A stretch of 64,000 nucleotides of DNA, from positions 51,729-115,728 of the forward strand of contig JAFTNZ010000009.1 in the NCBI GenBank assembly GCA_017451645.1, written 5' to 3'. This document shows positions 1 to 15,681 of the stretch, piece after piece; position 1 is the stretch's first letter, and each line of letters starts with the position of its first letter. Source of the DNA: Bacteroidaceae bacterium. GTDB lineage: Bacteria; Bacteroidota; Bacteroidia; Bacteroidales; Bacteroidaceae. The notes under the pieces were generated by a model. The model searched no databases. It had not been told where the DNA came from and was given only the letters and a program-made list of their open reading frames with translations. A program made the translations under genes and the position numbers.

Positions 1-2311
1 GGGTGAAGGTCTCATCGGTACAGATGGCAAAATCAACCCCAATGCCACATTGGGCTACAGCGATGGCACTCACTATTACACTCCCGATGATTGGGAAGAC
101 GAGACCATCGAGAGCCAGATGCGTCAGGAGTACAACCTGAGCATCACTGGTGGAAACAACAAGTTGAACTATTACCTTTCTGCCGGTTATCTGGAAGATG
201 GCGGTATCATCGAAGGTTCAGGTTTCAACCGTTTCACTACCCGTTTGAATGCCGACTATCAGGCCAAGAAGTGGCTGAAGGTGGGTGCCAACATGAGCTA
301 CACCAATTCTGAGAGCTTCTACCCCGGCGAGCAGACAGCAACCAACTCATCAGGTAACGCCTTCAACTTGGGTAACACCCTGGCTCCTATCTACCCGATG
401 TACGTGCGCGACGCTGCCGGCAACATCATGTACGATGAACACTTCGGCAACCCCCTCTACGACTACGGTGACGGACAGAGCACGCCCTACACACGTAACT
501 ACATGAACATGTCGAACCCCAAGGGTGACCTCACCTACGACAGCCGCGAGTACCTGATGGACATCTTTAACGGCAAGTGGTTTGCCGAAATCACTCCCAT
601 TGAGGGATTGAAGCTGACCGCCTCTTGGGGTCTGCACATGGACTACACCCGTCTCCACAACTACGAGAACAGATACTACGGACAGTCGGCCAGCTCCGGT
701 GGTTCTACCACACAGGACAACACCCGCGACTATGCCTTCAACCAGCAGTACCTGATTTCTTACATCAAGAGCTTCGGCAAGCACAACATCGACCTCTTGG
801 CCGGTTACGAATCTTATGAGCTGAACAGCGAAAACAGCTACGCATACGGCGAGGCACTCTACAAGGACAACGACTTCACTGTCAACAACACCATCAACAT
901 GAAGACCAGTGGAGGTAGCGTCGATGAGTATGCCACTCGTGGTTTCCTCGGACGCGTGAACTACAATTGGGACGAGAAATACTTCGGTAGCTTCTCATAC
1001 CGTCGCGATGCCTCTTCAGTGTTCCATCCCGACAACCGTTGGGGTAACTTCTTCTCAGCATCTGCTGCGTGGATGATTTCGAAGGAGAAGTTCATGGAAG
1101 ACGTCACTTGGGTGAACATGTTGAAGCTGAAGGCTTCGTTCGGTGAGCAGGGTAACGACTACCTGACCTACGGAAGCGGTTCGGGTCGGCTCTACGGATA
1201 CCGCAACTACGTCGTTTATCAGGACCAGTACCAGATGACCGGTGCCGATGGTGTATTCTCCGACGGAACATTGGTTTACAAAGGTAACCCCGACCTGACT
1301 TGGGAGAAGAGCAATGCCTACAACATCGGTGTGGATTTCGACCTCTTCAACCACAAGTTGAGCGGTACCATCGAATACTATGGCCGCAAGACCAGCGACA
1401 TGCTCTACTACAAGCCCGTGGCCGCTTCCAACGGTTACAGCCAGATTCCGATGAACATCGGTTCGATGACCAACTCGGGTATCGAGGTGGAACTGAACTA
1501 CCAGATTATGAACCGCAAGAACTTCAAGTGGGACGTATTCTTCAATGCCACCACCGTGAAGAACGAAATCAACGAGTTGCACCCCGACCTGAACGGTGAG
1601 TGGATCAGCGGTAGCCGCATCTACAAGGAAGGCGAATCCATGTACAACTTCTACCTCGTGAAGTATGCTGGTGTGGATGTAGCCACCGGTAAGGGTCTCT
1701 ACTGGGCCAACGACATCAAGTACGACGAGAATACCGGTGAAGAGATCAGCCGCACTCCTTACCTGACCGACAGCTGGAACGATGCTTACTCTACAGCCCG
1801 TGAAGCTACCGGCGACATCCTGCCCGATGTCTATGGAGGATTCGGCACCAACATCGAGTATCGCGGTTTCGACCTTTCTATCTCATTGGCTTACCAGCTG
1901 GGCGGTAAGATTATCGACAGCGGTTACCAGAGTCTGATGCATGCCGGTACAAGCAGTTCTGCCGGAACCAACTGGCACAAGGACATCCTGAAGGCTTGGA
2001 CTCCGGAGAACCCCTACACCGATGTGCCTGCCCTCAACTCAATGGACACTTATGCCAACCAGACGTCAGACCGTTGGTTGGTATCTTCAGACTACTTGTC
2101 AATCAACAACATCACTTTGGGCTACACCCTGCCGAAGAAGCTCACCCGCAAGCTGCAGATTGAGTCGTTGCGCATCTATGGTGCTGCCGACAATCTGGCA
2201 CTCTTCTCAGCCCGTCAGGGTCTCGACCCACGCCAAAGCTATCTGGATGCCACCAATGCCACCTACGGTGCCCTGCGCACCATCTCAGGCGGTGTAAAAC
2301 TGACATTCTAA
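1..2311 (+). CDS. susC: SusC/RagA-family TonB-dependent outer-membrane transporter, 3' part
   Basis: This is the C-terminal part of a SusC-type TonB-dependent beta-barrel that imports glycan oligosaccharides together with a SusD lipoprotein. The gene enters from the left edge with its reading frame starting at base 2; signal peptide, carboxypeptidase-like domain and plug lie outside the window. The visible roughly 769 residues are rich in alternating aromatic strands, contain barrel segments such as RVNYNWDEKYFGSFSYRRDAS, and close with the family-typical tail YGALRTISGGVKLTF, ending in Phe as barrel proteins do. SusD follows after 30 bases. Family assignment is certain; the substrate is inferred only from the pectinase gene nearby. 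Confidence 0.94.
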   Translation, partial: GEGLIGTDGKINPNATLGYSDGTHYYTPDDWEDETIESQMRQEYNLSITGGNNKLNYYLSAGYLEDGGIIEGSGFNRFTTRLNADYQAKKWLKVGANMSYTNSESFYPGEQTATNSSGNAFNLGNTLAPIYPMYVRDAAGNIMYDEHFGNPLYDYGDGQSTPYTRNYMNMSNPKGDLTYDSREYLMDIFNGKWFAEITPIEGLKLTASWGLHMDYTRLHNYENRYYGQSASSGGSTTQDNTRDYAFNQQYLISYIKSFGKHNIDLLAGYESYELNSENSYAYGEALYKDNDFTVNNTINMKTSGGSVDEYATRGFLGRVNYNWDEKYFGSFSYRRDASSVFHPDNRWGNFFSASAAWMISKEKFMEDVTWVNMLKLKASFGEQGNDYLTYGSGSGRLYGYRNYVVYQDQYQMTGADGVFSDGTLVYKGNPDLTWEKSNAYNIGVDFDLFNHKLSGTIEYYGRKTSDMLYYKPVAASNGYSQIPMNIGSMTNSGIEVELNYQIMNRKNFKWDVFFNATTVKNEINELHPDLNGEWISGSRIYKEGESMYNFYLVKYAGVDVATGKGLYWANDIKYDENTGEEISRTPYLTDSWNDAYSTAREATGDILPDVYGGFGTNIEYRGFDLSISLAYQLGGKIIDSGYQSLMHAGTSSSAGTNWHKDILKAWTPENPYTDVPALNSMDTYANQTSDRWLVSSDYLSINNITLGYTLPKKLTRKLQIESLRIYGAADNLALFSARQGLDPRQSYLDATNATYGALRTISGGVKLTF

Positions 2312-2341
2312 CCAATGTTTAACTCAAAACGAAGAACAACA

Positions 2342-3931
2342 ATGAAAAATATAAAGAATATTCTACTCGTTCCAGCCTTGGGCGGACTCGCCCTCGCCAG
2401 CTGCAACGATCTGGATACAGAGATTTTGGGCGACACCATCACCACCGACCAGAAAGAGGAGGTGATAGCAAGCAACCCTGCGATGATTGAGGCCAGCGTG
2501 ACGGCCATTACTTCGCTCTTCAGCGTATTCAACCAGCTGGGAGGCGAAACCCACGACGACTACGGCTATCCCTCAGTGATGCTGCAGATGGAGACCCGCG
2601 GTCAGGACGTAGTGAGCGACAACATCGGTTACAACTGGTACGGCTACACCCTGCAGCTCGATGACCACGACTACTCATGGCGCTTCACCCGCCTGTTCTG
2701 GAACAACATGTATGCCCGCACGTATGCCTGCAACGAGGTGTTGAGCGTGATTGACCCCGCTACGGAAGACGACGAACTGAAGTTCTATCTGGCACAGGCT
2801 TACGCTGTGCGTGCCTTCAACTACTTCAATCTGGCACAGATGTACCAGCACACCTACACCGCTGCAAAGGATTCGCTCTGTGTACCCCTGATTCTCGACA
2901 CCAATGCAGCCGATGCAGCCTCCAATGGCTGTCCGCGTGCCACTGTAGAGGAGACTTATACCCAGATTATGAGCGACCTCAACAATGCCGTCACACTGCT
3001 CGAAAGCTCTTCGAAGCAGCGTGCTGACAAACGCTATGTCAATGCTGCCGTAGCTTACGGTCTGCGTGCCCGTGTCAACCTGGTGATGAACAATTGGGCA
3101 GCAGCTGCCGAGGATGCCGAAAAGGCCATCAGCCTGAGCGGAGCCACCCCCTACAGCATCGCAGAAGTGTCTGTACCCACCTTCACCAGCATGACCGAGC
3201 CTTCTTGGATGTGGGGTATCAAAATTGCTGAGACGGATGATGTCGTAGAGACTTGGATCATCAACTGGCCGTCACACATGGGTTCGCTGAACTACGGTTA
3301 TGCCAGCGTGGGTGCATGGCGTCGCGTCAACAAGGCACTCTACAAGAGCATCCCTGCCACCGATGTGCGCAAGGGCTGGTTCCTCAACGAGGAGTGCACT
3401 TCAGCCAACCTCAACGACGATCAGAAGGCTTACGTCGAAGATTATGCCATGCCTCCCTACACACACGTGAAGTTCGCTCCCTACAAGAACGAGTTGGGTA
3501 CATCTACCAATGCCTGCGACATTCCTTTGATGCGTGTGGAGGAGATGTACCTCATCGTGGCCGAGGCCAAGGGTATGCAGAATCCGGGCGAAGGTGCCAA
3601 AGCACTGCAGGATTTCGTCAAGGCTTACCGCGACCCGTCATACACCTGCAATGCCTCATCGGCCACAGCCGTACAGAATGCAGTGTGGATGCAGCGCCGC
3701 ATCGAGTTGTGGGGTGAGGGTCACTCCTACTTCGACCTGATGCGTCTGCAGAAACCCATCGACCGTCGTGGCGGTGGCTATGCTGCCGATCTGGTTTACA
3801 ACGTTCCTGCCGGAGACCCCGTGCGTATCTTCATGATTCCGCAGAACGAAATCCAGAACAACCCGCAGATTGGCGAAAATCAGAACAACCCGAATGCCGG
3901 CATGCCGACTCCTGTACCTGATGTAGAATAA
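2342..3931 (+). CDS. susD: SusD/RagB-family nutrient-binding outer-membrane lipoprotein
   Basis: This is a surface lipoprotein that forms the lid of the SusC transporter and binds glycan chains. The ATG at 2342 is preferred because it gives a signal peptide with lipobox LALASC and acylated Cys21; an upstream in-frame ATG at 2315 would only add nine residues before it. The 529-residue length is normal. The N-terminal half has the helical TPR-like pattern (AQAYAVRAFNYFNLAQMYQ near residue 150), and the C-terminus has the SusD signature RIFMIPQNEIQNNPQIGEN, near residues 497-515. It is co-transcribed with susC and the lipoprotein at 3964. Confidence 0.96.
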   Translation: MKNIKNILLVPALGGLALASCNDLDTEILGDTITTDQKEEVIASNPAMIEASVTAITSLFSVFNQLGGETHDDYGYPSVMLQMETRGQDVVSDNIGYNWYGYTLQLDDHDYSWRFTRLFWNNMYARTYACNEVLSVIDPATEDDELKFYLAQAYAVRAFNYFNLAQMYQHTYTAAKDSLCVPLILDTNAADAASNGCPRATVEETYTQIMSDLNNAVTLLESSSKQRADKRYVNAAVAYGLRARVNLVMNNWAAAAEDAEKAISLSGATPYSIAEVSVPTFTSMTEPSWMWGIKIAETDDVVETWIINWPSHMGSLNYGYASVGAWRRVNKALYKSIPATDVRKGWFLNEECTSANLNDDQKAYVEDYAMPPYTHVKFAPYKNELGTSTNACDIPLMRVEEMYLIVAEAKGMQNPGEGAKALQDFVKAYRDPSYTCNASSATAVQNAVWMQRRIELWGEGHSYFDLMRLQKPIDRRGGGYAADLVYNVPAGDPVRIFMIPQNEIQNNPQIGENQNNPNAGMPTPVPDVE

Positions 3932-3963
3932 AGTATAATCCACACATTTAAAGAAACAACATT

Positions 3964-4824
3964 ATGAAACTGTATAAATCATTCCTGTTTTCAGCCTTGG
4001 CAGCCACCGCTGCCCTGGCTACCTCATGTAGCGACGAGGGAGAATGGGCAGCCTATCCGCAGGACACTACAGCCTATTCGTTCGCTCAGGCCACCAACAA
4101 TTACAACTTGGTTCCGACCGACGAAATCCCCGACTCGATAGAAGTGAGGGTGCGCCGCAACAACACCGAAGGCGAAGTGACCCTTCCCCTCATCGTGGAG
4201 TATAGCGGCAGTGTGCTCAAGGCCGACACACTCGTTACATTTGCCGACGGCAACAACGAAGCCACCTGCTTCATCCACTTCCTCAGCGAGCCCGTCATCG
4301 GACAGACAGAAACGATGACCATCGCTTTCGACACCCTGACAGAAGTCAGCCTCACAGGCAGTGGCACAATGGCGGTCAGCTTCCTGCTCGACTATACTTG
4401 GCTGCCTGCCGGTTCATGTAACTTTATCTCCGATTGGGAGGGCACCGAAGGTACCGTGCAAATCCAGCGGGCCAACGAGTATGAGGGCAACCTCTACCGC
4501 CTCGTCAGCCCCTACAATGTGTTGGCTCCCGACTATTGCCCCAATCCGGGCTACCACCTGCAGTTCTATCTCGATGAGAACTATGAACCGTTGGGTATGC
4601 CCCGCTTCCAGAACATCGGTGAGGCAGCAAGTGCCGGTGGATACTGGACACTCTATTATAGCGCCTCAGCAGAGTACTGTTCATTCACCCGTGAAGGAAC
4701 TCTATTCACCATCAATGGTGCATGGGCTACTGGTGATGCCAACATGGGTTATTCACTTGCGTACTATGCTACTGAAATGTTCGATTGGAACGACGGTTAT
4801 CCCGGAACTGTAGCAGCAGAATAA
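3964..4824 (+). CDS. Predicted surface glycan-binding lipoprotein of the Sus operon
   Basis: This 286-residue lipoprotein has signal peptide MKLYKSFLFSALAATAALA and lipobox LATSC (Cys22). The SDEGEW stretch after the cysteine is acidic, as in surface-exposed Bacteroidales lipoproteins. The rest is beta-rich: residues 45-140 (RRNNTEGEVTLPLIVEY... and SFLLDYTW) resemble Ig/Calx-beta-like repeats, followed by a Tyr/Trp-rich domain. It lies in the place usually held by SusE/SusF-like binding proteins, 32 bases after susD, and is the last gene before a terminator. I do not recognise a specific named family, so binding of the transported glycan is inferred from context. Confidence 0.83.
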   Translation: MKLYKSFLFSALAATAALATSCSDEGEWAAYPQDTTAYSFAQATNNYNLVPTDEIPDSIEVRVRRNNTEGEVTLPLIVEYSGSVLKADTLVTFADGNNEATCFIHFLSEPVIGQTETMTIAFDTLTEVSLTGSGTMAVSFLLDYTWLPAGSCNFISDWEGTEGTVQIQRANEYEGNLYRLVSPYNVLAPDYCPNPGYHLQFYLDENYEPLGMPRFQNIGEAASAGGYWTLYYSASAEYCSFTREGTLFTINGAWATGDANMGYSLAYYATEMFDWNDGYPGTVAAE

Positions 4825-4870
4825 AGCATTTCATCGTCAATTGTCCATTCAATTGACACATTCAACCCGT

Positions 4871-4908
4871 GGAGCTGTGCCGAAGTGATTCGGTACAGCT
4901 CCTTTGCT
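4871..4908 (+). terminator. Intrinsic terminator of the susCD operon
   Basis: A 14-bp stem (GGAGCTGTGCCGAA paired with TTCGGTACAGCTCC, one G-U pair) with a 4-base loop is followed by a T-rich run. It lies 46 bases after the lipoprotein stop. A separate perfect 8-bp inverted repeat, GTCAATTG / CAATTGAC, sits just before it at 4836-4857. Confidence 0.75.
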
Positions 4909-5039
4909 TTATGACATTTTTCAGACTCCATCCAGAGGAATTTGTAATTCGAATTTATTGCTGTCCGGTAAAAGAAGCAAAACTCAGGGTAATAGTCAAA
5001 AAACACCCACCGATGTACCTGATTCCCAAAATTTCTCCG

Positions 5040-5048
5040 TACATTTGC
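5040..5048 (+). promoter_or_regulatory. Putative -7 promoter element of the PL1 lyase gene
   Basis: TACATTTGC matches the Bacteroidota -7 consensus TAnnTTTG. No clear TTTG was found 19-21 bases upstream. Predicted transcription would start about 30 bases before the ATG at 5085, after the terminator of the sus genes, so the lyase may be transcribed on its own. Confidence 0.5.
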
Positions 5049-5084
5049 ACCCGACATATTGACAAGACTGAATCCACGAAGATT

Positions 5085-7304
5085 ATGACAAACAAAAGAT
5101 TATCCCTGCTGACGGCACTCTGCCTGTTGCTGACAGCCCCCCTGTATGCACTCACCATCAACGAAACAGGCGGATGGTTCGAGTCCGGCTACGTCACCTG
5201 GACTCCTGTGGAGGGAGCCTCCTCCTATCAGGTCTATTGCGCTCCCGAAGGGGGCAGCTACACACTGCTTGATGCACCGTTGGTGCGCAACTACGGCACC
5301 TACGGACGGGCCGATGCCGTGGGACTGACAGCGGACGAATACCGCTTCAAGGTGGTGGCCGTGGATGCTGACGGACAGCCCATCGAGGGAGAAACGGCTG
5401 AGACGGCCCCCTTCACCGTCCGCGCACACGACCGCGCAGGATTTGCCCACCTTAACCATCAGGGGGTGGGAGCCTACAACGACGACGGCTCGCTGAAGAG
5501 CGGCGCCAAGGTGCTCTACATCACCGCTGCCACGGCCAAGACCGTGACCTGCGACATCGCCACCAAGAGCAACGGCACCAAGCAGACCTTCACCGGCTTG
5601 CAGGCCATCATCGATGCCAAGCAGAAGGGCTACGACCTGACGCCGCTGGCCATCCGCCTCATCGGCACCATCGAAGCGACAGACATGGACAAGTTCTCCA
5701 GCAGTGCCGAAGGACTGCAAATCAAGGGAAAGAATGCCGCCGCCGAAATGAACATCACTCTGGAAGGCATCGGCAACGATGCCACCATCCGGGGATTCGG
5801 CATCCTGATGCGAAACTGCAAAAGCGTGGAACTGCGCAACTTTGCCATCATGCTCTGCATGGACGACTGCGTATCCATCGACTCCGACAACAGCAACTGC
5901 TGGGTGCATAACATCGATTTCTTTTACGGACAGACAGGAGGCGACAGCGACCAGGCCAAGGGCGACGGCTCGCTCGACTGCAAGGGCGACTCGAAGTACA
6001 TGACTTTCTCCTACAACCACTTCTGGGACTGCGGCAAAATGGCACTCTGCGGTATGACCAGCGAAAGCGGCGAGAACTTCATCTCGTACCACCACAACTG
6101 GTTCGATCACAGCGACTCGCGCCACCCCCGCGTGCGCACCATGACGGTGCACGTCTATAACAACTACTTCGACGGTGTATCGAAATACGGTGTAGGAGCC
6201 ACCTCAGGCAGCAACGTCTTCGTGGAAAGCAACTACTTCCGCAACACCAACAAGCCCATGCTCATCTCGCTGCAAGGCTCCGACCTCGGCAGCGATGGCA
6301 AAGGCACCTTCTCCGGCGAAGACGGTGGCATGATAAAGGCTTTCGGCAACGTCTATGCCGAGCAGTCGGCCAACTTCAGACTGGTGACCCACAAACAGAG
6401 TGCCACGGCCTTCGACTGCTACGAGGCCGACTCGCGCGACGAACAAGTGCCGGCCACCTACAAGACCCTCGTGGGAGGCACCACCTACAACAATTTCGAC
6501 ACCGACCCCACCAAAATGTATGCCTACACCGCCGACCCGGCCACAGACATCCCCACTATCGTATGCGGACAATACGGTGCCGGACGTATGCAGCAGGGCG
6601 ACTTCCAATGGACTTTCGACAACAGCGTGGATGACACCGATTACGAGGTGAACACTGCCCTCAAGGCTGCCATCACGGCCTATGCCCCCACCCTCGTGGG
6701 ACTTTTCGACGGCTCCACCTCCGGAGGAGAAGATGACAATGATGACACAGGCAATGACAATACCGGAGGTGACAACACCGGTGGAGACACCGGCAGCGAC
6801 GACGAACCCCCCACCCTGCCCGCTGACGGCGACTATGCCTGCCACTTCACCGGCAAGAAGCCTTCGAACAGTTTCTACACCATCACCGGCAACTACAGCA
6901 ACAGCAAGGGACAGGCCACTGTGGGAGGCACCACCTACACCGACTGCCTGAAGATTGAGAGCAAAACCTCCATCACCTTCACCATTGCCCAGCCAATGAC
7001 ACTCACCCTCGTCTTTGCCGAAGGCACCGTGCCCGACATCAAGATAGACGGCGAGAAGCTGACCGCCACCGGAAGCAACATCATCACCTGCCCGCTGGAA
7101 GCCGGCACGCACGAAATCACCAAGGCCAGCACCTTTAACCTCTTCTACATCAACCTCACTCCGGTAGCCGATGCCATCAGCCGGCCCACCCTGTCGGCCC
7201 CCATTGCCGATGCCCCCATCTACGACCTCACCGGCCGCAGGCTCAACAGTGTTCCCCAAAAGGGCATCTACCTCCAAGGAGGGAAGAAACGGGTGGTAAA
7301 GTAG
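5085..7304 (+). CDS. Secreted multidomain pectate lyase, PL1 family
   Basis: It cleaves polygalacturonate by beta-elimination at the cell surface or outside the cell. The ATG at 5085 gives a classical signal peptide (MTNKRLSLLTALCLLLTAPLYA); longer in-frame extensions overlap the promoter and lack a signal peptide. Residues 25-115 form an Ig/FN3-like module, and about 115-510 the right-handed beta-helix. The PL1 signature YHHNWFDHSDSRHPRVR, with the catalytic-site Arg, is near residues 335-351. A Gly/Asp/Thr-rich linker (about 547-575) leads to a small beta domain with a Cys pair. The end, IYDLTGRRL...GIYL, resembles Bacteroidota C-terminal sorting tails. The 739-residue length reflects these extra domains. 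Confidence 0.93.
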   Translation: MTNKRLSLLTALCLLLTAPLYALTINETGGWFESGYVTWTPVEGASSYQVYCAPEGGSYTLLDAPLVRNYGTYGRADAVGLTADEYRFKVVAVDADGQPIEGETAETAPFTVRAHDRAGFAHLNHQGVGAYNDDGSLKSGAKVLYITAATAKTVTCDIATKSNGTKQTFTGLQAIIDAKQKGYDLTPLAIRLIGTIEATDMDKFSSSAEGLQIKGKNAAAEMNITLEGIGNDATIRGFGILMRNCKSVELRNFAIMLCMDDCVSIDSDNSNCWVHNIDFFYGQTGGDSDQAKGDGSLDCKGDSKYMTFSYNHFWDCGKMALCGMTSESGENFISYHHNWFDHSDSRHPRVRTMTVHVYNNYFDGVSKYGVGATSGSNVFVESNYFRNTNKPMLISLQGSDLGSDGKGTFSGEDGGMIKAFGNVYAEQSANFRLVTHKQSATAFDCYEADSRDEQVPATYKTLVGGTTYNNFDTDPTKMYAYTADPATDIPTIVCGQYGAGRMQQGDFQWTFDNSVDDTDYEVNTALKAAITAYAPTLVGLFDGSTSGGEDDNDDTGNDNTGGDNTGGDTGSDDEPPTLPADGDYACHFTGKKPSNSFYTITGNYSNSKGQATVGGTTYTDCLKIESKTSITFTIAQPMTLTLVFAEGTVPDIKIDGEKLTATGSNIITCPLEAGTHEITKASTFNLFYINLTPVADAISRPTLSAPIADAPIYDLTGRRLNSVPQKGIYLQGGKKRVVK

Positions 7305-7344
7305 GAGCACAAAGCCGGAGGGATTACCCATATAGGAACAACAC

Positions 7345-7386
7345 AAAAAGCCAATCGCAGAAATCAAGAAGTGCGATTGGCTTTTT
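7345..7386 (+). terminator. Intrinsic terminator after the PL1 lyase
   Basis: AAAAAGCCAATCGCA and TGCGATTGGCTTTTT form a perfect 15-bp inverted repeat with a 12-base loop. The T-run lies in the 3' arm. It separates the lyase from the efflux operon. Confidence 0.82.
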
Positions 7387-7450
7387 GTATAATAGAGTAA
7401 CGTTTCTATTCAAACTGCAATCAAATTCCATAGAATTGCCTATCAATTCT

Positions 7451-7534
7451 TTATCCCAAGCCTTGGGATAAGTAAATCAAGGCTTGGTTCAATTATCCCA
7501 AAGCTTGGGATAAGTAAACCAAAGCTTGGGATAA
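7451..7534. repeat. Four tandem 21-bp palindromic units, candidate enhancer (UAS) for the NtrC-type regulator
   Basis: The 84 bases divide exactly into four 21-mers: 7451-7471, 7472-7492, 7493-7513 and 7514-7534. Unit 1 is a perfect palindrome, TTATCCCAAG-C-CTTGGGATAA. Unit 3 differs by one base, and units 2 and 4 share the CAAGGCTTGG / CCAAAGCTTGG core but begin GTAAA. A 21-bp period keeps all cores on one face of the helix. The array lies about 195-280 bases before the predicted start of the sigma-54 promoter at 7701, a usual distance for enhancer-binding activators. Binding by the regulator at 14317 is inferred, not shown. Confidence 0.82.
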
Positions 7535-7700
7535 GTTATCTTTCGGCACTTTTAGTTGTTTTGAAGGCCATTCGTTATGAATCTTGTGGCTGTTCCCATT
7601 TTCTTCGATGTCCGCCTGTGCCTACCGAGAGTGGACAGAGTGTCCGTTTTCGGACAGTGGGTGTTTTCGGGTTTCCGCTATAAATCAACCACTTGCATGT

Positions 7701-7717
7701 TTGGCACAGGATTTGCA
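7701..7717 (+). promoter_or_regulatory. Sigma-54 (RpoN) -24/-12 promoter of the efflux operon
   Basis: TTGGCACAGGATTTGCA matches the RpoN consensus YTGGCACrNNNNTTGCW. The invariant GG (7703-7704) and GC (7715-7716) are separated by exactly ten bases. Predicted transcription would start near 7728, about 28 bases before the adaptor ATG. The operon encodes an activator with a GSFTGA loop, the part that contacts sigma-54, and there are tandem palindromes upstream. No competing TAnnTTTG element is evident here. Confidence 0.8.
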
Positions 7718-7755
7718 CTTTATTATGGCGGAAACGAAAAAAACAAAAAACGAAT

Positions 7756-9009
7756 ATGGACAGAGAAATACCCAAAGAAGAGAGAAGAAAGCGCCTGCGC
7801 CGCCAAGTGCTTGTAGGCACAGGCATCGTGGCCGTGGGCTTTGCTGCCATAATGGGGCTGACCCGTTGGGCACAAAGTGGTGTGCAGCTGGCCGACCTGA
7901 AGACGAGCACCGTGGAGCGCGGAGCCATCGAAGTGAGTGTGGCAGCCGTGGGACGCGTAGTGCCTGCCGCCGAGGAGCTGATGACCTCGCCCATCACATC
8001 GCGCATTGTGGAGGTCTATTGCAAAGAGGGCGACAGCGTGGCGGCCGGCACCCCCATCCTGCGACTCGACCTGCAGAGCACCGAGACCAGCTACCGCAAA
8101 CTGTTGGACGAGGAGCAGATGAAACACTACCAGCTGGAGCAGCTGCGGCTGAACAACCTGACGCGGCTGAGCGACCTGCAGATGAACATCCGTGTGAGCG
8201 AAATGAAACTGAACCGCCTGGAAGTGGAGCTGCGCAACGAGCGCTACCTCGACAGCCTTGGTTCGGGCACCACCGACAAGGTGCGTCAGGCCGAACTGGC
8301 CTACAACACAGGCTGCCTGGAGCTGGAGCAACTGCGCCAGCAGTACACCAACGAGCAACAAGTGCGCGAGGCCGACCTGAAGGTGAAGGAATTGGAACTG
8401 GAAATCTTCCGGAAAAACCTGGCCGAGACACGCCGCACACTGGAGGACGCACAGATACGCGCACCACGGGCGGGCATCCTCACCTATATAAATAGCCAGA
8501 TAGGCACACAGGTGTCTCAGGGCAGTCAGGTAGCCACGCTCTCCGACCTCTCGAACTTCAAACTGGAAGTAGAGATGGCCGATGCCTACGCTGACCGTGT
8601 GCGGGTGGGAGTCAAAGCCGTCATCCGCATCGGCACGGACGAACTGGAGGGACGGGTGACGAGCATCACGCCCCTGTCGAAGGATGGCATCATCAGTTTT
8701 GTGGTGCATCCGCTCGACCCACGCCACCGCCGCCTGCGCTCGGGACTGAATGCCGACGTGCATGTGGTGGGCAGCGTGAAGGACAATGCCCTGCGCATTG
8801 CCAACGGCTCGTACTACCTCGGCAGCGGACAGACGCAGCTCTTCGTCCTCTCGCCCGACGGACAGACGCTCAACCGCCGCACCGTCCGACTGGGCGAAAG
8901 CAGCTACCGGTATGTGGAGGTCGTCGAAGGGCTTAACCCCGGCGAACAGGTCGTCATCAGCGACATGGCACGCTGGAAGGAGTATGAGAAACTGAAAGTG
9001 GAAAGGTAA
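7756..9009 (+). CDS. Periplasmic adaptor (HlyD/MacA-type membrane fusion protein) of an ABC efflux system
   Basis: This adaptor links an inner-membrane ABC transporter to an outer-membrane TolC channel. From the ATG at 7756 the protein is 417 residues. A basic N-terminus and one membrane anchor (about residues 16-36, VLVGTGIVAVGFAAIMGL) are followed by a split biotinyl-lipoyl domain (VYCKEGDSVAAGTPILRLD and RAPRAGILTYINSQIGTQV), a long alpha-hairpin between them (about 95-230, many Leu/Glu/Arg heptads), then beta-barrel and membrane-proximal domains. An upstream extension to 7693 would overlap the sigma-54 promoter, so it is rejected. It is the first gene of the operon; the substrate is unknown. 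Confidence 0.92.
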   Translation: MDREIPKEERRKRLRRQVLVGTGIVAVGFAAIMGLTRWAQSGVQLADLKTSTVERGAIEVSVAAVGRVVPAAEELMTSPITSRIVEVYCKEGDSVAAGTPILRLDLQSTETSYRKLLDEEQMKHYQLEQLRLNNLTRLSDLQMNIRVSEMKLNRLEVELRNERYLDSLGSGTTDKVRQAELAYNTGCLELEQLRQQYTNEQQVREADLKVKELELEIFRKNLAETRRTLEDAQIRAPRAGILTYINSQIGTQVSQGSQVATLSDLSNFKLEVEMADAYADRVRVGVKAVIRIGTDELEGRVTSITPLSKDGIISFVVHPLDPRHRRLRSGLNADVHVVGSVKDNALRIANGSYYLGSGQTQLFVLSPDGQTLNRRTVRLGESSYRYVEVVEGLNPGEQVVISDMARWKEYEKLKVER

Positions 9010-9151: not shown

Positions 9152-10450
9152 ATGTTCAAAATCTATCTGAGACAAGCATGGAACTTGGTGAAGCAGAACA
9201 AGCTCTTCACCTCCATCTACGTGATTGGCACAGGACTGGCCATCGCGCTGACGATGATACTCTTCATCGTCCACTACATCAAATTTGCACCCATCTATCC
9301 CGAGGAGAACCGGGGGAGGACGCTGGTGATAAAAGCTATGGAAGCAAACACCGAAGAGGGAAGGAACAGCCAAGGATGTTGCTCGCCTTATCTCTCAAAA
9401 GTATTGGAGGGATTACCTCATCTGGAGGCCATCGCCGTGGCAGACCACCAATGGATGCTCTCCCCCTCGGAGGTAAGCAACCCTGGTGAAATAAACGGTC
9501 TGAAGACCATCGTGCGACACGTCAACGACGGCTTCTGGCAGGTGTTCACCTTCCGCTTCCTGGCGGGTAAACCTTTCACCAAGGCTGACATGGATGCCAA
9601 GCAACAGGTAGCTGTGGTGCAGGAGGAGGTAGCCCTGCAACTCTTCGGCACCACGGAAGCCGTGGGCAAACGTCTGATCTGCGGTGATAAGGAGTTCAGG
9701 GTGGTAGGTGTGGTGGAAAACAGTTCGGTGGCCGCACCTGACTCTTATGCCGGTGTATGGATTCCTGCCACACTGAGCCTGCAATACGAAGACGAAATGG
9801 CGAACAGGGAGCACTTCATCGGCCTCTTTACCATCAACCTGCTCTCTACCTCGCGTGCCGACAATGACTTGCTGAAGGAAGAGGTGCGAGAGGCCATTCG
9901 CCAGTATGACGCTGACAACACCCAATGGAAACACAACCCATGGGGACAGCCCGTGGAGCACTGGGTAAGCCTTTATCAGAGCCAAACGGAATTGAACATC
10001 AAAGAGGTGGTACTCGACCTGCTCTACCTGCTGTTGGCCATGCTCTTCATCCCGGCACTGAACCTGAGCGGTATGATCTCCTCGCGTATGGACCACCGCT
10101 TGGTGGAGATAGGCGTGCGCAAGGCATACGGTGCCTCCAACGCTTCCATCCTCCGGCAAGTGCTGAGCGAAAACTTGGTCCTCACCGTGGCAGGCGGACT
10201 GGTGGGCCTGCTCCTCGCCTACCTGATTATTCTCACATGCAGCCACTGGATTCTCGGTCTGTTCGACAACCTCGGCCTCTATGCCTTTGCAGAAAGCAGC
10301 CCGCGCATCACCGCCGACATGTTGCTCAATCCATGGGTATTCGGCTCTGCCTTCGGAGCCTGCCTGTTGCTGAACTTCATCTCGGCCTTCATCCCCACCG
10401 TGTGGGCGCTCCGGCATTCAATCATAGAATCATTACATAGCAAATTATGA
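9152..10450 (+). CDS. ABC transporter permease, MacB/FtsX family (first of two)
   Basis: This is an inner-membrane permease subunit of 432 residues. One N-terminal membrane helix (about residues 20-42, FTSIYVIGTGLAIALTMILFIVHYI) is followed by a large periplasmic MacB-like domain (about 45-285) and three C-terminal helices of the FtsX domain, with the family motif EIGVRKAYGASNASILRQVL near residue 330. The ATG at 9152 is chosen because an earlier GTG at 9128 lies inside repeat A1. Permease 2 starts 21 bases after its stop, and the two probably form a heterodimer energised by the ATPase at 11938. Confidence 0.92.
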   Translation: MFKIYLRQAWNLVKQNKLFTSIYVIGTGLAIALTMILFIVHYIKFAPIYPEENRGRTLVIKAMEANTEEGRNSQGCCSPYLSKVLEGLPHLEAIAVADHQWMLSPSEVSNPGEINGLKTIVRHVNDGFWQVFTFRFLAGKPFTKADMDAKQQVAVVQEEVALQLFGTTEAVGKRLICGDKEFRVVGVVENSSVAAPDSYAGVWIPATLSLQYEDEMANREHFIGLFTINLLSTSRADNDLLKEEVREAIRQYDADNTQWKHNPWGQPVEHWVSLYQSQTELNIKEVVLDLLYLLLAMLFIPALNLSGMISSRMDHRLVEIGVRKAYGASNASILRQVLSENLVLTVAGGLVGLLLAYLIILTCSHWILGLFDNLGLYAFAESSPRITADMLLNPWVFGSAFGACLLLNFISAFIPTVWALRHSIIESLHSKL

Positions 10451-10471
10451 AACAATAAAAACATTCCCAAT

Positions 10472-11773
10472 ATGATAAAAATGATTTTCAAACAACTGTG
10501 GAACCAGCGGCGACAAAACGGCTGGATTCTGCTGGAACTGACCGTCATCACCTTCTTCATCTTCACCACTTCGGTGGAGGTAGTAAGGGGGTTGGCCGAT
10601 TACGCCCTGCCCAACGGATATGAGAAAGAGGGAGCCTATTGTCTGCAACTGAAAGAGGACAAGGCATACAGTTTCAAATACGATGTGAAGGAAGACAAAG
10701 CGAAAGACTCAATCTTCCACGCCAACTTCAACCAACTGCTGCTGGCCATCAAAGGATGCCCTGAGGTGGAGGCCGTGGCTGTAACCAACCAACACTCTTT
10801 CCCCGGTTCGGGCTCACAGACGGCGTTAGCTATGTATCCGGAAGACAGTACGTTCACTCCTTTAAATACAGTGCGATACCGCACCTACCTTGCTGATGGC
10901 ACGGACTTCATCAAGGCATACGGCCTGACCGACGCCCACACCGGCGAACTGATGCAACTACCCGAACGCATCCACGAAGGCAGGAAGGTGATTGTCTCCG
11001 CCTCATTTGCCAGATATATGTTCGGCACTATCGATGTGGTGGGAAAGGGTATCGGAAAAGTCCATAATCCAAGTGGAAAAGACCTGCAGGAGATTGTGGG
11101 TGTCTATCAAGACTTCAAGCGTACCGACTTTCAGGTTGGCTACCCTTCAATACTCACCATCAACACAAAAATGAAAGGACAAAACCCGTTTGACCACTTC
11201 ATCATCTACCGCCTGAAGGAAGGAGTGGATGGCAATGCCTTCGAAAAGAAGGTAATGAACGAGATTGCTCCCCGCTTTGCCAACACCCCCACGGTGATTC
11301 AAGGCATCGAGAGCTTCGAAGAAAGCCTCAACTGGTATAACGACATCATCGGTGTCTATAACCACTTGCGCTACACCGCCGTGATGCTCTTCTTCGTGCT
11401 GCTCTGTGTCTTCCTCGGCATGACGGGAACGTTCTGGGTGCGCTGTCGGGCACGCCGTCAGGATATTGGGCTGATGCGCAGCATCGGAGCCTCGCAGGCC
11501 ACCATCACCCGCCAGTTTATGACGGAGGCGTGGATGCTGGTCACCATCGGCTTTCTCATTGCCCAACCGCTCATCATCCACTATATCCACGGACTGAAGT
11601 GGAACGTCATCGACCTCACCGCCCACTATTGGCAGGACAGCAAAACGTGGCTCACCCTCGCCACCGATGCACTCATCTACATCCTGATGATGCTGATTGC
11701 CCTGCTCGGCACGTGGTTTCCCGTGAAACAGGCATCCAAAGACTTGCCGGCGGAGGCGCTGAGGGATGAGTAA
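10472..11773 (+). CDS. ABC transporter permease, MacB/FtsX family (second of two)
   Basis: It has the same architecture as its upstream neighbour: a helix near residues 20-40, a periplasmic domain up to about 290, then three helices (AVMLFFVLLCVFLGMTGTF begins the first). The FtsX motif RRQDIGLMRSIGASQATITR lies between the first two. At 433 residues it is full length. An alternative ATG lies three codons inside, at 10481. Sequence similarity to permease 1 is low by eye, so this is an old duplication or a heterodimeric pair and not a recent copy. Repeat A2 follows the stop. Confidence 0.91.
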   Translation: MIKMIFKQLWNQRRQNGWILLELTVITFFIFTTSVEVVRGLADYALPNGYEKEGAYCLQLKEDKAYSFKYDVKEDKAKDSIFHANFNQLLLAIKGCPEVEAVAVTNQHSFPGSGSQTALAMYPEDSTFTPLNTVRYRTYLADGTDFIKAYGLTDAHTGELMQLPERIHEGRKVIVSASFARYMFGTIDVVGKGIGKVHNPSGKDLQEIVGVYQDFKRTDFQVGYPSILTINTKMKGQNPFDHFIIYRLKEGVDGNAFEKKVMNEIAPRFANTPTVIQGIESFEESLNWYNDIIGVYNHLRYTAVMLFFVLLCVFLGMTGTFWVRCRARRQDIGLMRSIGASQATITRQFMTEAWMLVTIGFLIAQPLIIHYIHGLKWNVIDLTAHYWQDSKTWLTLATDALIYILMMLIALLGTWFPVKQASKDLPAEALRDE

Positions 11774-11795
11774 AGGAAGACCCTCCAAAACGGGA

Positions 11796-11918
11796 GACCC
11801 TCCCTAACCCTCCCTGTGAGGGAGGGGATCGGATAGTGAAATACTCATAAATAAACAATAAACAAACAACGGACTCTATCTGAGTTCCCTCCCTCACAGG
11901 GAGGGTCAGGGAGGGTCC
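11796..11918. repeat. GC-rich inverted-repeat element, copy A2
   Basis: Arms 11796-11826 and 11888-11918 are inverted copies with one mismatch and the same CCCTCCC-TGTGA-GGGAGGG core as copy A1. The interior also matches A1 apart from a short insertion. A partial extra fragment, GACCCTCC, precedes it at 11779-11786. It lies between permease 2 and the ATPase and contains no gene. Confidence 0.88.
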
Positions 11919-11937
11919 AATAAAAACCTAAAATAAT

Positions 11938-12609
11938 ATGTCAATCATCAAACTTACCGGTATCAACAAGATATACCGCACCAACGAGATAGAAACCCAG
12001 GCACTGGAAAACGTGAATCTGGAAGTAGAGAAAGGCGAATTCCTCAGCATCATGGGGCCTTCGGGATGTGGCAAATCCACGCTACTCAACATCATCGGCC
12101 TGCTGGACAAAGCTACAAGCGGCACCATCGAACTGTGTGGCACCGAGGCCATGACACTGAAGGACAAGGAGCTGGCCGAGTTCCGCAACCATCGGTTGGG
12201 ATTCATCTTCCAATCGTTCCACCTGGTAAACTCGCTGAATGTCATCGACAATGTGGAACTGCCCTTGCTCTACCGCAACGTGTCGGCGGGCGAACGCACA
12301 CGGCTGGCCAAGGAGGTGCTTGAGCGTGTGGGGCTGAGCCACCGCATGCGCCACATGCCCATGCAACTGTCCGGTGGACAGTGCCAGCGCGTGGCCATCG
12401 CCCGTGCCCTCATCGGTAATCCGGACATCATTCTGGCCGACGAGCCGACGGGTAACCTCGATTCAAAGATGGGTGCCGAAGTGATGGACCTGCTACGCCA
12501 ACTGAACCGCGAAGACGACCGCACCATCGTGATGGTGACCCACAACGAGGAGCAGGCACGCACCACCTCGCGCACCATCCGCTTCTTCGACGGAAGACAG
12601 GTGGAGTGA
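11938..12609 (+). CDS. ABC transporter ATP-binding protein, MacB/LolD family
   Basis: This cytoplasmic ATPase powers the two FtsX-type permeases. All nucleotide-binding motifs are visible in its 223 residues: Walker A GPSGCGKST near residue 40, Q-loop FIFQSF, signature LSGGQ near residue 143 followed by CQRVAIARAL, Walker B IILADEPTGNLDS, and H-loop MVTHN. LSGGQCQR has Cys where most relatives have Gln or Lys, a conservative position. The length equals that of stand-alone LolD/MacB ATPase domains. It is flanked by repeat A2 upstream and repeat B1 downstream. Confidence 0.95.
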   Translation: MSIIKLTGINKIYRTNEIETQALENVNLEVEKGEFLSIMGPSGCGKSTLLNIIGLLDKATSGTIELCGTEAMTLKDKELAEFRNHRLGFIFQSFHLVNSLNVIDNVELPLLYRNVSAGERTRLAKEVLERVGLSHRMRHMPMQLSGGQCQRVAIARALIGNPDIILADEPTGNLDSKMGAEVMDLLRQLNREDDRTIVMVTHNEEQARTTSRTIRFFDGRQVE

Positions 12610-12640: not shown

Positions 12641-12797
12641 CCCAACGGACCCTCCCCCTGCCCCTCCCAAGGGAGGGGAGTGAAATGTTGGGACAACAAT
12701 TCAATTAAAAAAATGAACTTATTATATTATGAACAGGATATATTATCATAGTCGAAACATTCTACTCCCCTCCCTTGGGAGGGGCAGGGGGAGGGTC
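12641..12797. repeat. GC-rich inverted-repeat element, copy B1, running into the TolC gene
   Basis: Arm 1 (12647-12681) and arm 2 (12764-12797) are inverted copies around CCCCTCCC-AA-GGGAGGGG. The interior is AT-rich and ends in AACATTCT, complementary to the AATGTT after arm 1. Bases 12641-12680 are identical over 40 positions to 49011-49050 inside dnaG. Arm 2 lies within the first codons of the TolC-like gene. Confidence 0.88.
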
Positions 12798-14255
12798 TTC
12801 TTCCTCTGCTGTCTGCTCGTCTGCTCGGCATTGTCGTCCCAACCGCGCCCCATCACTCTTGAAGAGGCCATCCTGACGGCACGCACACAGAGCGTGGATG
12901 CGGCCGTGGCACTAAATGAACTGAAGACGGCCTACTGGGAATACCGCACCCACCGCGCTGACCTGTTGCCGGAGATGAGCCTGTCGGCTTCGCTGCCAAA
13001 TTACAACAAGCGCTACAACTCGTATCAGCAGGAGGACGGTTCCTACACCTTCGTGCGCAACAACTACTTGGGCATGAACGGCGCACTGGCCATCAACCAG
13101 AAGATTTGGCCTACGGGCGGAACGCTCTCCCTGCAAACGTCGCTCGACTACATGAAACAGCTGACGGGCGACCGCACGGAGCGCTACATGTCGGTGCCCG
13201 TGGCACTGCAACTGAGCCAACCCATCTTCGGCGTGAACAGCGTGAAGTGGGACCGCCGCATCGAACCTGTGCGCTATGCTGAGGCCAAGGCTGCCTTCCT
13301 CAGCGCCACCGAGGAGGTGACGATGAGCACCATCAACTACTTCTTCAACCTCCTCCTTGCACGCGAGAATGTGAGCATCGCCCGCCAAAACCTCGACAAT
13401 GCCCGCAAGCTGCACGAGGTGGCCAAGGCCAAACGCCGCATGGGGCAAATAAGCGAGAACGACCTGCTGCAGCTGGAGCTGAATGTGCTGAACGCCCAAT
13501 CGGCCCTCACCGAGAACGAGAGCAGCATGAAGAGCCACATGTTCAAACTCCGCTCCTTCCTCGGATGGAACGAGCAGGAGGAGCTGGAGCCGGTGCTGCC
13601 CGACACCATTCCCGGCACATTGCTGGAGTATAGCCAGGTGTTGCAGAAGGCATTGGAGAACAACTCCTTCGTCCACAACATACGCCGCCGACAGCTTGAG
13701 GCCGACTATCAGGTGGCCAAGGCACGGGGCAACCGCCGGCAGATAACCCTCTTTGCACAGGTGGGCTACACGGGCACCGACCGCACGATGAATGGAGCTT
13801 ACGACCACTTGCTGGACAACCAAGTGGTGGAGGTGGGCTTCAGCATCCCGCTCGTCGATTGGGGCAAGCGCCGCGGACAGGTGAAGGTGGCCGAAAGCAA
13901 CCGCGAAGTGACAGCCAGCCGCCTCCGGCAGGAGAGCATGAACTTCAACCAGAACCTCTTCATCCTCGTGGAGCAGTACAACAACCAGCGGGCCCAACTC
14001 GACATTGCCCGCGAGGCCGACCGCATCGCCCAACGCCGCTACCACACCAACGTGGAGACTTTCCTCATCGGCCGCATCAGCACCCTCGACCTCAACGACG
14101 CGCAAATGAGCAAGGACGAGGCACGACAGAAGCACATCACCGAACTGTTCTACTACTGGTACTACTACTACCAGCTCCGTAGCCTCACCCTTTGGGACTT
14201 CGACAAGCAGACGGGCATCGACGCCGATTTTGAAGCGATAGTGAAGGGGAGGTGA
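12729..14255 (+). CDS. TolC-family outer-membrane efflux protein
   Basis: This is the outer-membrane channel of the efflux system, 508 residues. Two TolC repeats of long alpha-hairpins are visible (about residues 55-265 and 290-490), with coiled-coil stretches such as LLARENVSIARQNLDNARKL and strands between them. Its N-terminus is odd: codons 12 to 23 (LLPSLGRGRGRV) are encoded by arm 2 of repeat B1, followed by the hydrophobic signal core FFLCCLLVCSALSS. The only ATG giving this signal peptide, at 12729, lies in the interior of the repeat. Translation may therefore depend on the inserted element. Confidence 0.9.
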   Translation: MNRIYYHSRNILLPSLGRGRGRVFFLCCLLVCSALSSQPRPITLEEAILTARTQSVDAAVALNELKTAYWEYRTHRADLLPEMSLSASLPNYNKRYNSYQQEDGSYTFVRNNYLGMNGALAINQKIWPTGGTLSLQTSLDYMKQLTGDRTERYMSVPVALQLSQPIFGVNSVKWDRRIEPVRYAEAKAAFLSATEEVTMSTINYFFNLLLARENVSIARQNLDNARKLHEVAKAKRRMGQISENDLLQLELNVLNAQSALTENESSMKSHMFKLRSFLGWNEQEELEPVLPDTIPGTLLEYSQVLQKALENNSFVHNIRRRQLEADYQVAKARGNRRQITLFAQVGYTGTDRTMNGAYDHLLDNQVVEVGFSIPLVDWGKRRGQVKVAESNREVTASRLRQESMNFNQNLFILVEQYNNQRAQLDIAREADRIAQRRYHTNVETFLIGRISTLDLNDAQMSKDEARQKHITELFYYWYYYYQLRSLTLWDFDKQTGIDADFEAIVKGR

Positions 14256-14277: not shown

Positions 14278-14310
14278 TTTGGAAATATGAAAAAGATAAG
14301 ATACTTTTGC
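14278..14310 (+). promoter_or_regulatory. Internal TTTG/TAnnTTTG promoter for the regulator and kinase genes
   Basis: TTTG at 14278-14281 and TACTTTTGC at 14302-14310 are 20 bases apart, which matches the Bacteroidota -33/-7 consensus exactly. Transcription would start around 14313-14316, zero to four bases before the regulator ATG. The two regulatory genes could thus be expressed at a basal level by the housekeeping sigma factor. Confidence 0.68.
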
Positions 14311-14316
14311 ACCATT

Positions 14317-15681
14317 ATGATACTGATAATAGACGATGATCAGAGCATACGCTCGTCGCTGGGCTTCATGCTGAAGCGGGCGGGGCACGAGGTGACGGCC
14401 GTGGGCACTCCCAAGGAAGCACTGGAGGTGGTAAGGGAAACTGCGCCCCGACTGATGCTGATGGACATGAACTTCTCGCTCGCTACCGACGGGGAGGAGG
14501 GATTGACACTGCTCCGTCAGGTGAAACTCTTCTGCCCGCAAGTGCCAGTCATCCTGATGACGGCGTGGGGAAGCATCCAACTGGCCGTGAAGGGGATGCA
14601 GGCGGGCGCATTCGACTTCGTCACCAAACCATGGAACAATGTGGCACTGATGCAGCGCATCGAAACGGCACTCGAACTGACCGCCGGAAAGACGGATGAC
14701 AATACAACGAATGCGGATGACGGAGAGTTTGACCGTAGCCACATCATCGGCCGCAGCGAGGGACTGCTGAGAGTGCTGGAGGTGGCAAAGCGCATTGCCC
14801 ACACCACCGCTTCGGTGCTCATCACGGGCGAGAGCGGAACAGGCAAGGAACTGATAGCAGAGGCAATACACCGTAACAGTCCGCGACGGGGGAAACCTTT
14901 CGTAAAAGTGAACTTGGGCGGTATCTCGCAATCGCTGTTCGAGAGTGAAATGTTCGGACACAAAAAAGGCTCCTTCACCGGTGCAGTGAACGACCGGGCG
15001 GGACGCTTCGAAATGGCGGACAAGGGCACCATCTTTCTGGACGAAATAGGCGAACTGGACCTTAGCTGCCAAGTGAAGATGCTGCGCGTGCTACAGGAAC
15101 AGACCTTCGAACGGTTAGGCGAGAGCACACCACGCAAGACGGACATCCGCGTGGTGAGCGCCACCAATGCCGACCTGCCACAGATGGTGCGCGAGGGAAC
15201 TTTCCGCGAAGACCTCTTCTACCGCATCAACCTCATCACGGTACACCTGCCAGCCTTGCGCGAACGACGTGATGACATTCCCCTGTTGGTGCGCCACTTC
15301 ATCGACCAACAATGCCGGCAGAACGGACTGCCACCGGTAAGTGTTACCCCCGAAGCAATGCAGTACCTGCGTACACTGCCCTACCCCGGAAACATACGCG
15401 AACTGAAGAATTTGGTGGAGCGCACCCTGTTGGTGAGTGGAAACGAGGAACTGACGGCTGATGACTTCAAGGCCATGCATTCTCTCGCAGGCCAATCGGA
15501 AGCAGTCCAGACAACCACTCCGCCAGCCACCGAAGGGCTGACACTGGACGAAATAGAGAAACAGGCCATCCAGCAAGCTATCAGCCGCTACAGGGGCAAC
15601 CTTTCGCTCGTAGCCGTGGAACTGGGCATCAGCCGCGGAGCACTCTATCGGAGATTAGAGAAATATGGAATTGAGTTTTAG
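14317..15681 (+). CDS. NtrC-family sigma-54-dependent response regulator
   Basis: This transcriptional activator has 454 residues. Receiver domain residues 1-120 carry the acidic pocket D6-D8, phospho-acceptor Asp50 (LMLMDMNF) and Lys104 (VTKPW). The AAA+ domain has Walker A GESGTGKE, the sigma-54-contact loop GSFTGA (usual form GAFTGA), Walker B GTIFLDEIGEL, and a sensor region with RINLITVHLPALRERRDDI. A Fis-type helix-turn-helix closes the protein (NLSLVAVELGISRGALYRRL). The ATG at 14317 begins exactly at the receiver fold; the ATG at 14275 would place the promoter inside the gene. The histidine kinase follows 14 bases later. The probable target is the operon's own promoter at 7701. Confidence 0.95.
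   Translation: MILIIDDDQSIRSSLGFMLKRAGHEVTAVGTPKEALEVVRETAPRLMLMDMNFSLATDGEEGLTLLRQVKLFCPQVPVILMTAWGSIQLAVKGMQAGAFDFVTKPWNNVALMQRIETALELTAGKTDDNTTNADDGEFDRSHIIGRSEGLLRVLEVAKRIAHTTASVLITGESGTGKELIAEAIHRNSPRRGKPFVKVNLGGISQSLFESEMFGHKKGSFTGAVNDRAGRFEMADKGTIFLDEIGELDLSCQVKMLRVLQEQTFERLGESTPRKTDIRVVSATNADLPQMVREGTFREDLFYRINLITVHLPALRERRDDIPLLVRHFIDQQCRQNGLPPVSVTPEAMQYLRTLPYPGNIRELKNLVERTLLVSGNEELTADDFKAMHSLAGQSEAVQTTTPPATEGLTLDEIEKQAIQQAISRYRGNLSLVAVELGISRGALYRRLEKYGIEF

Follow-up and report, generated by a model that had tools for sequence, protein, structure and literature searches.

Dispersed arrays of four 21-bp palindromes in Bacteroidales and their putative HU-family partner protein

Introduction

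What is a tandem array of four 21-bp palindromes doing in front of an efflux operon? The question is raised by a 64-kb stretch of Bacteroidaceae DNA (the window), which is part of contig C37 in an assembly of 2.5 Mb that is 72.6% complete. The original prediction, made from the sequence alone, placed a sigma-54 promoter before the operon and took the array upstream of it for enhancer sites of the NtrC-type regulator that the operon encodes. We compared the array, the promoter, and their surroundings across related genomes, cultured strains, and mobile records.

Results and Discussion

The array in the window

The division of the array into four 21-mers was borne out (Table 1). Among sets of four palindromes at equal spacing, positions 7451 to 7534 score highest in the 64 kb, with 26 of 32 pairs, against at most 22 of 32 for eight other spacings tried on the same DNA. 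In order, the units read TTATCCCAAGCCTTGGGATAA, GTAAATCAAGGCTTGGTTCAA, TTATCCCAAAGCTTGGGATAA, and GTAAACCAAAGCTTGGGATAA, and they pair with themselves at 10, 7, 9, and 6 of 10 positions, so that the alternation of strong and weak units noticed earlier is right for this copy. It does not stand as a rule: 9 of the 12 copies with the window word lack it, and it is seen only in the window, the ortholog L115, and L114. No CRISPR-type unique spacers lie between the repeats of the window array, and no GTAG or CGTC tag or complement occurs within it; CGTC is found inside the unit in some other array words.

Table 1. Features of the locus, in window coordinates
Feature	Position	Strand	Remarks
Perfect 17-bp inverted repeat	7343-7388	+	3' side T-rich; resembles a terminator for the upstream pectate lyase gene
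Left (A) arm of dispersed element	7389-7450	+	Alignable across all 13 copies compared, with L009 and L010 the most diverged
Array of four 21-bp dyads, word TTATCCCAAGNCTTGGGATAA	7451-7471, 7472-7492, 7493-7513, 7514-7534	.	
Right (B) arm of dispersed element	7535-7596	+	Box decayed in the window copy
Second dyad GGACAGAGTGTCC	7633-7645	+	Overlaps the 7641-7656 dyad
Dyad TGTCCGTTTTCGGACA	7641-7656	+	Likely activator (UAS) site of the sigma-54 promoter; strict dyad in 15/22 regions
-24/-12 box TTGGCACAGGATTTGCA	7701-7717	+	Near-perfect; GG-N10-GC
HlyD-type adaptor	7756-9009	+	First gene of the operon
Two MacB/FtsX permeases and ABC ATPase	9152-12609	+	
TolC-type outer membrane protein	12729-14255	+	
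NtrC-type response regulator	14290-15681	+	Receiver, sigma-54 activator, Fis HTH
Sensor kinase	15696-17003	+	

Dispersed copies and their arms

Elsewhere in the genome, the window word occurs in six full arrays (three on contig C12 and one each on C16, C22, and C4) and as one single unit (C13), all between predicted open reading frames, and a reversed control pattern had no match genome-wide. Full copies of the word have four units in 12 of 12 cases; no array stands behind the single 12-mer matches L012, L014, L015, L029, and L038 (loci L116 to L120). A 25-mer of the word plus the joint, with up to 2 mismatches, was found in 2 of 151 family genomes. In the genome_contigs collection, where records near the window may be omitted, the exact word turned up only in two Bacteroidaceae MAGs from the ruminant gut, RGIG1657 and RGIG6315. 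The window's element had no match in phages, plasmids, or a viral pattern scan. Two different array copies have a gene for an ABC-F-like double ATPase, named by inspection, in their vicinity (L005, 4411 to 6169; L007, 677 to 2783).

On either side of each array lies an arm of about 60 bp. In 13 of 13 copies the two arms look more like an inverted repeat than composition-kept shuffles do (p ≤0.024), although their identity is only 38 to 56%. A 7-bp outer stem covaries, with 87% paired and 14 double-change cells versus 6.1 in shuffles; when slid, it is at most 43% paired. Such covariation could arise from template-switch correction of palindromes, without function. The Bacteroidetes promoter consensus has boxes at -33 and -7, and at two HU gene loci (L112 and L137) the B arm holds TATCTTTG, which read by eye is like the -7 box.

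Four places are common to G000 and G002, one of which is a single unit in G000 versus four in G002 (orthologous L011 and L114). For three orthologous pairs of dispersed arrays, the arrays stand at 0.89 to 0.93 and the arms at 0.85 to 0.97, with no indels. Dispersed arrays diverge about as fast as their arms, which we counted against the HU-protein reading proposed below.

Arrays with other words

A sequence model of the array (R1) had matches in 9 of 15 genus genomes, and most of the weak matches that we opened are arrays with other words. A structured four-unit model (R2), run with strict filters and 33 candidates scored per genome so that its counts are lower bounds, had matches in at least 31 of 121 family genomes and at least 16 of 30 genera. 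Of the candidates, L192, L199, and L200 proved not to be arrays, and L188 scores no better at 21 bp than at other spacings. Array edges are mostly AAAGT/ACTTT or TTCT/AGAA-like, and a single genome can hold more than one array word, as does G002.

Across 20 arrays, pairing is explained best by a palindrome of the single unit (82.2% of cells, covariation 0.471). The two rejected alternatives pair less well, though by small margins: a single nested hairpin reaches 80.5% and 0.427, and two paired hairpins reach 78.3% and 0.410. Pairing is kept despite sequence change, with 82% of cells paired and 115 double-change cells versus 41 in shuffles. Four units are present in 22 of 23 arrays of G011, 20 of 20 of G063, and 19 of 19 of G122, sets that were found with four-unit models and are therefore biased towards four. 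Exceptions have one unit (L011), three (L220, L233, and L235), or five (L185 and L316). A slippage minisatellite with free copy number is disfavored, as four units recur nearly throughout the counted sets.

Association with HU-HIG genes

Among 190 open reading frames neighboring array copies, the HU-HIG family, reportedly named in a 2017 study, is the one present in most loci (five), followed by an AraC-like group, named by inspection, in four. From HU-HIG matches in seven genomes we opened twenty regions. Arrays precede the genes for proteins of about 210 amino acids whose C-terminal region is conserved, L258 being the exception; seven HU-HIG genes of other types have no upstream array by reading, although one of them, L251, passes the period test described below by one point. 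The conserved C-terminal region is probably a winged helix, going by the Pfam family description and inspection, and we refer to this subfamily as HU-wHTH. The partner protein belongs to PF18291 (3 of 3 over the cut-off), where Pfam covers only to about residue 132, and matches TIGR01201 (HU_rel), which covers to residues 132 to 188, with 2 of 4 proteins over its cut-off and 2 of 4 below; only the subfamily with the conserved C-terminal region showed arrays. HU/IHF chains also match the partner protein by profile.

We scored the association by asking whether a 21-bp step was strictly the best of 17 periods in the 400 bp upstream of each gene. This was true for 20 of 22 HU-wHTH genes versus 1 of 7 other HU-HIG genes, in a split between the two groups that was made with the arrays in view. 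Further genes passed in 2 of 3 cases in named strains and in 1 of 2 cases added later (G266 passes and G242 fails), giving 23 of 27 HU-wHTH genes in total. Genes found without knowing of an array pass in 15 of 19 cases (12/14, 2/3, and 1/2), the other eight of the 27 having been known through their array. The failures are L258, L267 (a tie), L312, and L262. Start positions are off by a few bases in L226, L243, L250, and L252, where no ATG is found, and the best-scoring frame is shifted by one unit in L226, L235, L242, and L247. The cases are not all independent, because L255 and L266 are close paralogs. In the window's own assembly the same HU-wHTH protein is encoded twice, by L264 (G000:C29) and L266 (G000:C30), in opposite orientation and close to opposite contig ends, possibly an assembly duplication.

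A profile of 14 HU-wHTH proteins, run at an E value of 1e-35 against 149 genomes, added genes from 4 genomes belonging to other families. In G179, the arrays of five genes (L260, L265, L267, L269, and L270) end 61 bp before the start codon and carry differing words; L270 encodes a shorter protein, L267 only ties, and the fragment L271 is left out of the period scores. These five paralogs share similar downstream sequence and form a natural series for word turnover. G197 and G266 pass the period test, with the G266 array (L263) 58 bp before the start, and G242 (L262) fails with no array upstream. The window word itself stands upstream of HU-wHTH genes in two other genomes (G002:C64 and G006:C137); the subfamily profile found no gene with this word in the window's own incomplete assembly. 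In G063 and G011, no array listed by the R1 and R2 models lies beside an HU-HIG gene of the seven-genome listing.

Matching and turnover of words

We built word profiles from dispersed arrays, using 20 of G063, 19 of G122, 22 of G011, 2 for the second word of G002, and 10 for the window word, and scored them against 14 gene-adjacent arrays, all of which were left out of the profiles. The words match in 6 of 6 testable gene arrays (G063:C20, G122:C20, G011:C13, G002:C16, G002:C64, and G006:C137), all of which have their top score with the expected profile, each matched word being the dispersed word of the gene's own genome or, for one gene, of close relatives. G011:C13 scores weakly (3.2) because the scored frame is shifted. 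The other eight gene arrays fit no profile well, the highest being G179:C53 with 8.3 for the window word.

Word similarity rises with protein identity, from 0.33 at 20 to 40% through 0.36 at 40 to 55% and 0.42 at 55 to 75% to 0.58 at 75 to 95%, as expected for codivergence; the rank correlation is 0.30 over 190 nonindependent pairs. Near-identical proteins can have different words, so that the protein may not fix the word alone and a second determinant is possible. For example, the proteins of L257 (G002:C44) and L259 (G000:C17) are 96% identical with a word similarity of 0.68, the central bases differing, and G179 paralogs at 86% identity have word similarities down to 0.35.

Cultured strains and mobile records

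The same pairing of gene and array is present in Bacteroides finegoldii and Parabacteroides distasonis, whose HU-wHTH proteins are WP_022275387.1 and WP_005856492.1, respectively. The array of the B. finegoldii gene recurs at 27 places, itself included, in 14 records (11 Bacteroides and three Staphylococcus), and that of the P. distasonis gene at 19 places in 9 records, all Parabacteroides, with one of the places under a hypothetical protein. We opened eight copies and found each of them in the space between annotated genes, ahead of groES and recR for instance, in a PLSDB gene table that is incomplete. By reading, seven of the eight have four units and one has five; the degenerate L321 scores no higher at 21 bp than at other periods, and L316 only ties. 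L316 (B. finegoldii NZ_OY725899.1) is the five-unit array, about 450 bp upstream of groES. The P. massiliensis gene L312 fails the period test, with a 21-bp-spaced half-site visible by eye.

The HU protein had no match in phages, and none of 15 pattern stretches in viral contigs was confirmed. In PLSDB it had three matches, one on a record with recA and clpB. Three records labelled as plasmids of TSDC17.2 strains (OY725982.1, NZ_OY725779.1, and NZ_OY725932.1, the last with recA and clpB) may be chromosome fragments.

A proposed reading of the array

The spacing, the palindromy, the association with the gene, and the match of words are direct observations. Going beyond them, we consider it likely that an HU-HIG protein with the conserved C-terminal region has an operator-like array, of which the window array is one dispersed copy. 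A step of 21 bp is two turns of the helix, and protein dimers would sit next to one another on the dyads. Autoregulation would be the task of the array upstream of the HU-wHTH gene, the dispersed arrays would offer the protein additional sites from which neighboring DNA is shaped or regulated, and words and proteins would diverge together. With less assurance, we lean towards a broader proposal, an undescribed Bacteroidales-wide system of diversifying HU-winged-helix proteins with private palindromic words, in which four helically phased dyads stand upstream of the protein's own gene. For some of these proteins the dyads would be repeated at tens of intergenic places as chromosome-organizing or regulatory nucleoprotein stations, the words turning over between species.

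The strongest competitor holds that the element is a MITE-like, nonautonomous mobile repeat spread by a transposase, the HU gene being only one of the places copied or hit. The two arms that resemble inverted repeats, the covarying outer stem, and the presence of more than one word in some genomes, such as G002, fit this. Against it, many HU-wHTH genes in several families are preceded by arrays, whose words differ, and the four places common to G000 and G002 give no sign of recent movement. We regard mobility as the sole explanation as unlikely, and the two readings are mutually compatible.

We give little credence to the array acting as RNA, through tandem hairpins or as a terminator or attenuator. 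The array does fold better than shuffles (z = -4.0), and the outer stem covaries; however, G-T mispairs have no strand bias over A-C mispairs (73:64 and 31:46), and there is no clear excess of compensated changes within units of G011, which together argue for DNA half-sites rather than RNA. A promoter-like box, read by eye, also lies between the array and the gene in two HU loci, and each of ten Rfam matches in positions 7200 to 7800 is below the gathering score of its family.

Comparison to known systems

Under the HU-protein reading, the organization resembles that of RAYT/REPIN systems, in which, as described in excerpts of PMC3116915 and PMC3733652, a gene is tied to a word, the palindromes are dispersed and intergenic, the words are lineage specific, and the word stands beside the gene. 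In those excerpts, the partner is a tyrosine transposase, whereas we found an HU-family DNA-binding protein, and REPINs are REP doublets, whereas the arrays here have four dyads on a 21-bp step and the window array has no GTAG or CGTC tag. The BrickBuilt MITE of Porphyromonas gingivalis is also an intergenic element of Bacteroidales with a tandem-repeat core between a leader and a tail, and in the excerpted text it is reported for P. gingivalis and Porphyromonas gulae, with 23-bp repeats in variable number (1 to 22.8) and IS5-like ends (PMC4596501). The arrays here are 21-bp palindromes, mostly four, in several families and with a partner gene, and identity with BrickBuilt was rejected on repeat length and on the four units of the 12 full word copies.

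Among the matches listed for open-license PMC papers, we found no DNA target of HU-HIG families and no 21-bp array or protein-array pairing of this kind. Cautiously, the system may be filed as an autoregulated DNA-binding protein with a dispersed regulon; what distinguishes it is the constant layout of four units and the word turnover. If the proposal is true, it provides DNA targets for an HU-like family and explains dispersed repeats in common gut bacteria, including B. finegoldii and P. distasonis. The matched pairs of gene and word make both sequence-specific targeting by HU-family proteins and the way this code changes directly testable.

The efflux operon and its promoter

The promoter half of the original prediction held up and is ordinary. 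The -24/-12 element has the predicted GG-N10-GC spacing and agrees with the sigma-54 motif TGGCAC-N5-TTGC. Within the window, TGGCACNNNNNTTGC has a single exact match (7702 to 7716) and, with one mismatch allowed, 7 matches versus 5.2 expected; TTGGCACNNNNNTTGCW has three matches in the 2.5-Mb genome versus one for the reversed-pattern control. The other exact matches of TTGGCACNNNNNTTGCW are only L042 (G000:C8:9393) and L043 (G000:C9:19205). We compared 22 upstream regions of adaptor orthologs (its own, nine of the genus, and twelve of the family or order), and in 16 a box agrees at 10 or more of 12 positions, which places it as conserved in genus and order before orthologous efflux operons and supports the claim of a sigma-54 promoter fronting an operon with an NtrC-type regulator and kinase. 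Regions without such a box are those of G186, G294, G277, G248, G349, and G190; in G167, the box precedes a start upstream of the match. A search for rpoN found none in the window's own, 72.6% complete assembly, and found it in 12 of 15 genus genomes and 6 of 6 high-quality genus genomes. The promoter is of an already known type, since sigma-54 control of FtsX-like ABC permeases in Bacteroidia was already predicted in the excerpted part of PMC12316311.

A strict dyad, TGT(T/C)C-N-GGACA, is shared by 15 of the 22 regions and in 13 of these starts 59 to 60 bp before the best box; the exceptions are G248, with a spacing of 70, and G190, without a clear box. The G002 dyad departs from the motif by one change. 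The only match within the window is centered near -79 of the start, which is expected near 7728. We consider this dyad the likelier activator site when set against the array. The efflux operon would be read from the sigma-54 promoter, which the operon's own NtrC-type regulator would activate, most likely through the 7641 to 7656 dyad. The search for the operon's activator site thereby moves to a conserved, easily mutated dyad.

The original prediction had named absence of the array and of the -24/-12 box from close relatives as evidence against itself, and had called for a search upstream of orthologous operons. Among five genomes with adaptors 98 to 100% identical, the array precedes the gene in G000, G002, and G008, where it is weak (19 versus 18 for other periods). 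G007 and G003 lack it but retain the -24/-12 box, so that the first of the two named absences was observed. Before five more distant orthologs of the genus, which also keep the promoter, no array was found over 500 bp. This patchy presence in close relatives disfavors a necessary role for the array at the pump operon, where it is probably incidental or at most modulatory. That its dyads are NtrC-type enhancer sites for the operon's own regulator is the least credible reading and was rejected on comparative and dispersal evidence: distance to the box, dyad symmetry, and the regulator encoded in the operon fit, but the array is not conserved with the promoter as the 7641 to 7656 dyad is, and its word is dispersed at other genomic places and stands upstream of HU genes.

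Upstream of the operon, positions 1 to 7304 of the window hold SusC/SusD-like genes, named by inspection, and a pectate lyase with CBM77 (PF00544 and PF18283) lies directly upstream. A pectin utilization locus appears to end where the array begins.
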